Assembly: GCF_900106535.1 (NCBI RefSeq)
Contig: NZ_FNOH01000008.1
Span: 124,001-188,000 of the forward strand
Source: Myxococcus xanthus
GTDB lineage: Bacteria > Myxococcota > Myxococcia > Myxococcales > Myxococcaceae
DNA length: 64,000 bases
Direction of reading: 5' to 3'
Part shown: in pieces, positions 57,816 through 59,676 of the stretch
Layout: every line of letters starts with the position of its first letter
Numbering within the stretch: the stretch's first letter is position 1
Translations under genes and position numbers: made by a program
The notes under the pieces: generated by a model
Database searches by the model: none
The model's input: the letters and a program-made list of their open reading frames with translations, nothing else
What the model was told of the DNA's origin: nothing

Positions 57816-58559
57816 ATGGGAAGCAGAATGCGCCGGAGGCCTGGCTACAAGAGCCGGCCTTCCGTGGCCGCGCTGGCGGAGTCATTGGGGTTGCTGCGAT
57901 CTCGAGACCTGGAGGCACATGGCGCTGCACGCAGCCAGCTCAACCTGCTGTGCAATGTCGGAGCCCTGCGAGAAGTCGCGCCCGGCGTCTGGGCTCGCTC
58001 GAGCGCGATGGTGACAGCCGCGGCCATTGCCGTGAAGCGCGTCCCCCGGGGCGTGCTCTGCTTGAAGTCCGCGCTGTGGTTCCACGGCTTGCTGCCTGAA
58101 TCCCCCACCGAGGTCTGGATGGCCATTGGAGCGCATGCGCGTAAACCGCGCTGGGACCAGCCACCGCTCCAGGTGGTTCGCTTCTCGGGGCGAGCACAGA
58201 CGGAGGGCATCGAGCACCGCCTGCTCTGGGGGTTGCCCATCACCGTCTACGGCGTCGCGAAGACGGTCGCGGACCTATTCAAGTATCGAAACAAGCTGGG
58301 ATTCCCCATCGCCGTGCGTGCACTCCACGACGCCCTCCTCTCAGGGCTCACCACCTCGGATGAGGTTCGACACTTCGCGGAAATCTGCCGCGTCAGGAAG
58401 AGTGTCGGCCCCTATCTCGAGGTCCTCGAAGCACGGCGAGGCCAGGACATCCTGCGCGCGAGGCAGGCCTTCCTCGCGCGCGAGGCTGCACGGGCGAGGA
58501 GCCTGGAAGCGCCCCTGCTCCACCAGCTCCCCGGGCATCCGGAGAGCGAAAGCCGCTGA
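57816..58559 (+). CDS. AbiEi-like (COG5340) transcriptional-regulator/antitoxin protein, orphan
   Basis: A 247-residue protein. An N-terminal winged-helix region (SVAALAESLGLLRSRDLEAHGAARSQLNLLCNVGALREV) is followed by the AbiEi_4-type domain with GVLCLKSALWFHGLLPESPTEVWMAI and VYGVAKTVADLFKYRNK. AbiEi proteins act as antitoxin and autoregulator of the AbiEii nucleotidyltransferase toxin. No such toxin gene follows; a long palindrome does. It could be an orphan regulator or the leftover of a defence module. A GGGGAGGG site lies 7 nt before the ATG. Confidence 0.75.
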   Translation: MGSRMRRRPGYKSRPSVAALAESLGLLRSRDLEAHGAARSQLNLLCNVGALREVAPGVWARSSAMVTAAAIAVKRVPRGVLCLKSALWFHGLLPESPTEVWMAIGAHARKPRWDQPPLQVVRFSGRAQTEGIEHRLLWGLPITVYGVAKTVADLFKYRNKLGFPIAVRALHDALLSGLTTSDEVRHFAEICRVRKSVGPYLEVLEARRGQDILRARQAFLAREAARARSLEAPLLHQLPGHPESESR

Positions 58560-58660
58560 GCCGAATCCAAGGAGTGCCGAGCCCAACGGATGGGTGTTCG
58601 AACGCTGGGTGCCCGCCCCCGAAGTGGCCTCAGCAGGTGGGGGGCCCGGTCGCGGACACG

Positions 58661-58730
58661 GAGCTCGCTGTTCGGAAATGTCGGGACTTTTGTCGCGCCA
58701 AAACTCCCGACATTTCCGAACAGCGACCTC
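58661..58730. repeat. 70-nt near-perfect palindrome
   Basis: Arms at 58666-58686 and 58705-58725 are perfectly complementary over 21 bp. Inside them TTTTG/CAAAA (58688-58692 and 58699-58703) pair around a TCGCGC loop. Outside, 58661-58665 and 58726-58730 add four pairs of five. Thus about 30 of 32 possible pairs form. The sequence is A/T-richer than its neighbourhood and lies between the convergent AbiEi-like and hydrolase genes. It could be a bidirectional terminator, a MITE/REP-like element or a protein-binding site. Confidence 0.8.
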
Positions 58731-58809
58731 GCAAGGTCACTTCGGAGGGGTCCGGTCAGCGCCCCTGGAGGCCGTGGGGGCCGGACATGTCAGCACCCGC
58801 TCCTGTGGT

Positions 58810-59676
58810 TCAACGCACGGCCCTGGCAGCCGCGCGGGCCGACTCCAGGCCATCGAGGAACTCGACGATGCGCTGGGCGCATCGCTCCGGCTGCTCCAGC
58901 GGGAAGAGGTGCCCCGTGCCGGGAAGCTCCTCCGTCTGGGGATCATTCAAGGTGAGGCGGGCCCGCTCCAGTGCGTCGCGCGTCAGCGTGTCGGACTCAC
59001 CGCCGCGAATCACCAGAGACGGGACGTTCACGGTGCCCAGCTCGCGCCAGACATCCTTCGGAGACGTCTCGAAGACACGCGCCTCCCAGGCCTTGGGGAT
59101 GGTCAGCCGGAAGCCACCGCTCGGGGCCTCGGTGAGGCCGTGGGTGATGTAGTCCTGGAAGCACTCCGGGTCGAAGCGCGCGAACAGCGGCTTCTTGCCG
59201 TAGCTTCGCGCGGCCTCTTCACGAGCGCCCCATGACTCACGCCGCCGCCGCGCCAGACTCGCGGGCGGCACGCGGCTTCGCAGCCCGAGCAGCGTCAAGG
59301 CACGGAGCGCCCATTCCCGCGCCCCCGTGAACAATACCGGGTCCAACGCCACCACGGCCCGGAAGAGCGCGGGCGCCTTCGCGGAGGCCAGCAGCGTCGC
59401 CACGCCGCCCATGCTGTGCCCCACGCCCACGACCCCCTGCACGCCGTGAGCACGCAGGGCGTGAATCAGGTCATCCGCCATGTCATCCCAGGTCCGCAGC
59501 TCGCGCGGGTCGGAGCCCGGCACGAGGCACCGCGTACGAAGCGTGAAGACGTGGTAGCGCGGCTTCAGGTGCTCGATGAGTTTGCGGTAGCACCCCGGAG
59601 GAAAGCCGTTGGCGTGGGCCAGGTGCAGCACCGGACCGGTGCCGCCCCAGTCCTCCATCTGAAGGGCGTCGTGCAT
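58810..59676 (-). CDS. Alpha/beta hydrolase
   Basis: A 288-residue protein of the alpha/beta-hydrolase fold. It has an HANGFPPGCYRKL oxyanion-side loop, the nucleophile elbow GHSMGG near residue 97, a VPSLVIRGGESDTLT strand with the likely catalytic Asp, and GTGHLFPLEQPE with the catalytic His. It is probably an esterase, lipase or epoxide-hydrolase-like enzyme with unknown substrate. The ATG is at 59676. Confidence 0.85.
   Translation of the reverse strand: MHDALQMEDWGGTGPVLHLAHANGFPPGCYRKLIEHLKPRYHVFTLRTRCLVPGSDPRELRTWDDMADDLIHALRAHGVQGVVGVGHSMGGVATLLASAKAPALFRAVVALDPVLFTGAREWALRALTLLGLRSRVPPASLARRRRESWGAREEAARSYGKKPLFARFDPECFQDYITHGLTEAPSGGFRLTIPKAWEARVFETSPKDVWRELGTVNVPSLVIRGGESDTLTRDALERARLTLNDPQTEELPGTGHLFPLEQPERCAQRIVEFLDGLESARAAARAVR

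Follow-up and report, generated by a model that had tools for sequence, protein, structure and literature searches.

A dispersed palindromic repeat family associated with an orphan AbiEi-type gene in Myxococcus xanthus and its relatives

The palindrome and its neighbouring genes

The window analysed, a stretch of 64,000 nucleotides of the M. xanthus genome, carries at 58661..58730 (no strand assigned) a palindrome that folding, BLAST and arm pairing identify as a member of a repeat family with dispersed copies. As the first-pass annotation had described, the palindrome is near-perfect over 70 nt, consisting of two 35-nt arms in which 32 of 35 positions pair without gaps; with a count that ends after about seven mismatches, applied alike to the palindrome and to shuffles, the palindrome reaches 32, and six mononucleotide shuffles of the entire window never exceeded 18. 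For 58641-58750 the folding z-score is -7.7 on the plus and -8.2 on the minus strand, and none of 200 dinucleotide shuffles folds as well on either strand. The A/T-richer TTTTG-TCGCGC-CAAAA core seen at first pass is present, the GC fraction being 0.557 within the palindrome versus 0.70 in the window. Positional conservation over 174 arms delimits a left 23-bp unit, CTGTTCGGAAATGTCGGGACTTT (58668..58690, plus strand), and a right 23-bp unit, CTGTTCGGAAATGTCGGGAGTTT on the minus strand (58701..58723); between them lies a 10-bp spacer (58691..58700, no strand), the core of which is reversed relative to five orthologous sites. The palindrome matched nothing in the phage and plasmid collections. 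Its sole Rfam match (mir-1993, 28 bits versus a gathering score of 82) was dismissed as a chance hairpin match.

The palindrome lies, as originally noted, 3' of an orphan AbiEi-like gene (57816..58559, plus strand), its first unit beginning ~108 bp past the gene; on the other side a convergent gene for an alpha/beta hydrolase (58810-59676, minus strand) ends ~86 bp from the palindrome units. The AbiEi-like gene encodes a protein of 247 residues with a winged helix and an AbiEi C-terminal domain, which we propose as the binder of the palindrome. It matches AbiEi in PADLOC (7.8e-56) and, just over the cut-off, AbiEi_4 in Pfam (7.4e-6), with no match in NCBIfam. Its AlphaFold model (pLDDT 87, pTM 0.80) has as best fold match the Streptococcus agalactiae AbiEi structure 6y8q (Z 17.8, rmsd 3.3, 192 aligned residues, 18% identity), followed by MenT1 and Rv2827c (Z 9.2); the predicted model has both the winged helix and the C-terminal domain of the AbiEi fold, and no transposase fold is among the best 50 matches listed by either fold search. 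A search for the AbiEii toxin (PF08843), in which the controls matched in 4 of 14 cases, gave no match in the source genome (G000) or in G063, i.e. the adjacent toxin of an AbiE system was not found; the same family was matched once in G060, megabases from the gene, and once in G078, on a different contig.

A repeat family built from a ~23-bp unit

It had been proposed that a single-copy palindrome at which the RNA 3' ends of both genes map would be just a bidirectional terminator; the palindrome is not single-copy, since the source genome (9.26 Mb) holds 11 closed palindromes as well as half-sites. BLAST returned 31 alignments there, each palindrome being counted in both orientations, and the arm GTTCGGAAATGTCGGGA occurs 28 times with at most two mismatches, versus 0 times for the reversed control. 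The half-sites comprise three at contig ends, L026, where an IS30-type end abuts half a palindrome, and an old half-site, L025; a further arm match with two mismatches, L057, is probably unrelated to the family.

Each palindrome consists of two inverted units of ~23 bp, CTGTTCGGAAATGTCGGGNNNTT, which in the window copy are 10 bp apart. Across 174 arms from 87 closed palindromes in nine genomes, the conserved block reads CTGTTCGGAAATGTCGGG followed by three variable letters and TT(T), ~23 bp in all. Conservation is weaker outside this block, the next outward position being G in 159 of the 174 arms, and because this weaker conservation runs on outward, the unit length of 23 bp is a judgement. 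The loci were picked by their arms, with at most three mismatches in a 14-base core, so the conservation of the core is partly by construction, from which the outer CTG and the TT are exempt. In most palindromes a unit of the ACATTT/ACTTTT type is paired with one of the GGTTTT type. Conservation concerns a ~23-bp sequence and not a fold alone.

The start-to-start spacing of the units, tallied by hand from locus coordinates and sequence, is 35-38 in 151 of 176 unit pairs. Of the 13 pairs with a spacing of at least 43, 11 fall no more than 1.5 bp from a whole number of 10.5-bp turns (p 4e-4); eight of the 13 come from G064, and those at 68-69 resemble one shared IS30 remnant. Helical phasing of the spacer was set aside, the signal being lost without G064 (p 0.22). 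The spacers of the G064 palindromes (L345-L354) are mostly ~10, 20 or 32 bp longer than those in other genomes, and the ones that are ~32 bp longer hold an apparent IS30-type remnant. Several other arrangements were seen. In G060 (L181 2527-3305; G060:C1:1158422-1159208), tandem ~147-bp repeats each contain one GGTTTT-type unit, and the array terminates in a palindrome containing an IS30-family fragment. Some palindromes of G063 (L162, L167, L172-L175) and G000 (L003, L004, L008) lie inside longer dispersed repeats; they differ from most other sites in having homologous flanks, ~70-260 bp long, on one side or both. At one orthologous site in two species (L191 in G066, L271 in G077) the centre has collapsed to GAAATGTCGGGACATTTC.

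With neighbouring genes called by a simple gene caller, 82 of the 87 palindromes could be classified and five could not: 37 lie between convergent, 33 between tandem and 12 between divergent genes, the convergent share being 45% versus 16% of background placements. In 62 of the 82 the closest end of any gene is a 3' end (versus 0.38 in background placements), as it is in 19 of 25 when one palindrome is taken per orthologue group. Numerous, extragenic and biased towards 3' ends, the palindromes are thus dispersed as REP sequences are, at a copy number below that of typical REPs. No common function was found among ten proteins encoded beside copies (chosen from 24); these mixed neighbour functions, together with the 3'-end bias, weaken a reading of the copies as a regulon controlled through promoters.

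The excess of convergent placements, the high stability of the hairpin on both strands and the position of the window copy between the ends of two convergent genes all agree with a bidirectional transcription terminator, or an RNA hairpin, whose usefulness at 3' ends led to its dispersal. However, no T-run, a feature of intrinsic terminators, follows the hairpin on either strand in the window sequence, and lone units occur in the 5' leader of the AbiEi-like gene itself in four relatives. In G001, moreover, the 26 units listed (at most two mismatches) have no inverted partner within ~200 bp, so the hairpin cannot form there; as a general function, neither the suggested role as RNA substrate nor that of a simple terminator is therefore supported. 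Neither a conserved sequence nor co-occurrence with one gene, as described below, is expected of a terminator, and we consider this explanation improbable.

The palindrome centre is used as a target by an IS30-family element (the element of L083 belongs to this family; NCBIfam NF033563, 1e-87). One IS end used as query on six genomes gave 10 matches in three of them: all eight in G069 and the single one in G078 lie between palindrome halves, and that in G064 is a 28-bp fragment that does not lie between such halves. In G076, the orthologue of the window palindrome, downstream of the AbiEi-like gene, is split by such an element. The earlier proposal of a recombination site holds in this sense only, i.e. 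as an insertion target. That the palindrome exists solely as the target site of this transposon would account for these insertions; yet G060, G063 and G077 have palindromes and gave no IS-end match at E<=0.001, IS30-type remnants being seen in G060 and G077, and a mere target would neither be conserved nor track the AbiEi-like gene. We regard this explanation as very improbable. No element using the units as its own ends was seen in the loci read, the units beside IS ends being those of split palindromes. Of the earlier suggestion of a MITE/REP element, the dispersal in numerous copies is supported; as for the MITE hallmarks, no element with these termini was seen in those loci, and one site (S11 in G077, below) may be read as empty with a 4-bp repeat.

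Co-occurrence with the AbiEi-like gene, and the age and loss of copies

The AbiEi-like protein was searched for in 96 genomes of the family Myxococcaceae, a close homologue being defined by E<=1e-50, a cut chosen after a gap in the E-values had been seen (the next genome stands at 8e-33), and units were counted with the 23-bp pattern at up to two mismatches. A close homologue is present in 15 of the 96 genomes, each of which has 15-48 units; among the other 81, many units were found only in G054 (10), G075 (19) and G077 (14), exceptions that count against the link, as none of the three has an intact gene, and the remainder have 0 or 1. The association of the gene with at least 10 units (15 of 15 versus 3 of 81) has a Fisher p of 6e-15 when kinship is ignored. 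Within genus g1 the association persists (Fisher p 3e-5), and in genus g8 the gene is present in two of seven genomes, the same two alone having many units. In 99 further genomes of the phylum, outside the family, there is at most one unit match each. G070, which has neither gene nor units, has the arm at none of seven orthologous places examined.

The gene and the repeat are also adjacent, a unit or palindrome lying within ~500 bp of the gene in all 15 gene-bearing genomes, at differing positions; together with the co-occurrence, this supports the link between palindrome and AbiEi-like gene suggested at first pass. In seven Myxococcus genomes the copy is downstream of the gene and not over its promoter. 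G064, G069, G074 and G079 have a palindrome downstream of the gene and a single unit in its 5' leader; in these four genomes the gene is megabases from the hydrolase homologue, or on another contig. In G040, G041, G043 and G001 a unit or palindrome lies upstream of the gene, the G001 copy consisting of two separate units, with no closed palindrome there. As judged from their sequences, the unit variants follow lineage: all 19 matches listed for G040 have the variant ACGTCGG, both arms at its gene being changed, and 20 of the 26 listed for G001 have TGTTCTGAGATGTCGGG, including both units by its gene. The pairing is not general to AbiEi proteins, because none of the 19 more distant homologues read has a palindrome of this family beside it; near four of them there are only isolated matches to the core, with 2-3 mismatches. 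Just 3' of two distant homologues there are short imperfect inverted repeats of unrelated sequence (L142 2113-2166, L154 596-642). The record BNCN01000007.1 (L147), titled Comamonas sp. KCTC 72670, contains a Myxococcus-type gene and palindrome, and its name looks wrong.

The adjacency of a copy to the gene in every genome with a close homologue, and the accumulation of copies near gene 3' ends, would also be expected of selfish REP- or MITE-like palindromes that spread by transposition, with the AbiEi-like gene participating or hitchhiking as RAYT genes do with REPs. The age of the copies argues against this explanation. For 10 of the 11 closed palindromes of the source genome, an orthologous palindrome is present in one or more of the other genomes examined (8 in G066, 7 in G063 and 8 in G060), and most copies are old, since orthologues are kept in G060, where the flanks differ by up to 30%. 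At orthologous sites, picked by their arms and compared between G060/G067 and the xanthus-like G000, G063, G066, G076 and G078, the 19-nt arms are identical at 2338 of 2394 positions (97.7%), the spacers at 68% and the adjacent 60-bp flanks at 69%. Spacers vary fast, and in some orthologues the core has been turned around between its flanks: the window copy is flipped with respect to five relatives, and flips are found in at least three more groups. Inversions of this small size are common within hairpins, and we therefore attach no particular importance to them here.

At the window site, where a comparison of presence and absence between strains had been proposed at first pass, G077 has neither gene nor palindrome at the orthologous place, and in G075 only residues 1-79 of the gene remain. 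From their closeness to carriers, both genomes appear to have lost the gene. Using 11 reference sites (eight from G000 and three from G066) and scoring a flank that was not located as a loss, at least one unit is kept at 59 of 66 sites in six gene-bearing relatives versus 10 of 22 in G075 and G077 (p 6e-5; 7 of 11 in G077 and 3 of 11 in G075), a comparison of two lineages made by hand tallies at sites defined in gene-bearing genomes. The difference holds when S1, the site at the gene itself, is left out (53 of 60 versus 10 of 20; p 8e-4), and without G066, the source of three reference sites (49 of 55 kept; p 1e-4). Flank identity to the reference is 84-98% in G075 and G077 versus 70-94% in G060, G063 and G067, three genomes in which 29 of 33 sites are kept. 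A version of the test limited to cells in which the flank was found was rejected as biased, the gene-bearing loci having been fetched by their arms.

The losses that could be resolved look, from the sequences, like three deletions ending in short repeats and one larger deletion. One of the three, that of S11 in G077, can also be read as an empty site, because a 4-bp repeat, CAGC, stands on either side of the palindrome in its relatives, and to that extent it favours selfish spreading. Against such spreading stand the deletion-like character of the losses, the match of the linked protein to AbiEi and to no transposase among the best 50 matches listed per fold search, and the lack, in the loci read, of any element with these units as its ends. 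We think it unlikely that selfish spreading explains the family.

An operator-like repeat with a candidate binding protein

The repeat is an operator-like, REP-like family that is most likely bound by the orphan AbiEi-type protein. As in AbiE type IV toxin-antitoxin systems, an AbiEi fold, a PADLOC match and an inverted pair of 23-bp sequences by the gene are present. The two inverted 23-bp repeats bound by the AbiEi of S. agalactiae are separated by 3 bp, and the 23-bp pairs bound by Rv2827c by 13 bp (PMC3985639, PMC7319586), compared with 10 bp in the window. The likeness is one of architecture, the match in letters between the unit and the S. agalactiae operator arm being at chance level (permutation p 0.37). 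Unlike in AbiE, the search of the source genome yielded no AbiEii toxin, the operator-like unit recurs 15-48 times in each gene-bearing genome, and the copy at the gene is downstream in the seven Myxococcus genomes. There is a precedent for wider AbiEi roles in a Mesorhizobium abiEi mutant, reported to have 116 changed genes (PMC8436566).

Like REP/REPIN sequences with their RAYT (TnpA-REP) genes, the family consists of short palindromes dispersed close to the 3' ends of genes, has a linked gene next to copies, varies in sequence by lineage and is targeted by insertion sequences. It differs in that the linked protein is of the winged-helix AbiEi type and not an HUH tyrosine transposase, and in that the unit has no GTAG or CGTC tag at its ends, the G040 variant having an internal CGTC. 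In its architecture the palindrome thus resembles an AbiEi operator and in its dispersal a REP family, but it belongs fully to neither class, because no toxin was found and the linked protein is not a RAYT. Here the insertion sequence is of the IS30 family and enters at the palindrome centre; IS1655 is presumably of the same family. Specific insertion into dispersed palindromic repeats is shared with REP-targeting elements, such as IS1397, IS621 and ISPpu9 among others, and in a survey of such elements strong targeting is named for IS3, IS110, IS4, IS256 and IS5, the table giving only a weak REP association for IS1655 in Neisseria (PMC1525189).

Given the likeness to known operators, the co-occurrence and the unit variants that follow lineage, the AbiEi-like protein is the best candidate binder. 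By analogy with known AbiEi operators, one monomer would bind per unit and a pair per palindrome, and we consider binding of the units or palindrome by this protein likely. The fuller description, i.e. that the copies are dispersed operator-like sites of two inverted ~23-bp units tied to the orphan winged-helix protein encoded beside one of them, is in our judgement probably correct. Through the copy at its gene the protein may regulate itself. Most speculatively, the dispersed copies might be protein-bound sites just past gene ends, acting as transcription roadblocks, as insulators or by local bending, and might be retained for as long as the protein is present; a roadblock or insulator role in particular is possible but doubtful. 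Tentative, and somewhat less likely than not, is a further reading in which an antitoxin that lost its toxin now serves, as their dedicated protein, a set of chromosome-wide repeats, which are kept across species and deleted after gene loss, and on whose sites an IS30-family parasite has specialised. Among the matches listed in the open-access PMC literature we found no description of the repeat, of a dispersed repeat linked to AbiEi or of such an IS30-family parasite.

An AbiEi-type protein without a toxin is easily filed as a remnant of abortive infection; here one is tied to conserved chromosomal sites, and such orphans thereby acquire a testable role. The question why bacteria keep REP-like palindromes becomes approachable in a system of a single gene and some twelve sites. 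If the proposal is correct, the REP-like system of these myxobacteria would rely on an antitoxin that binds DNA in place of a transposase.
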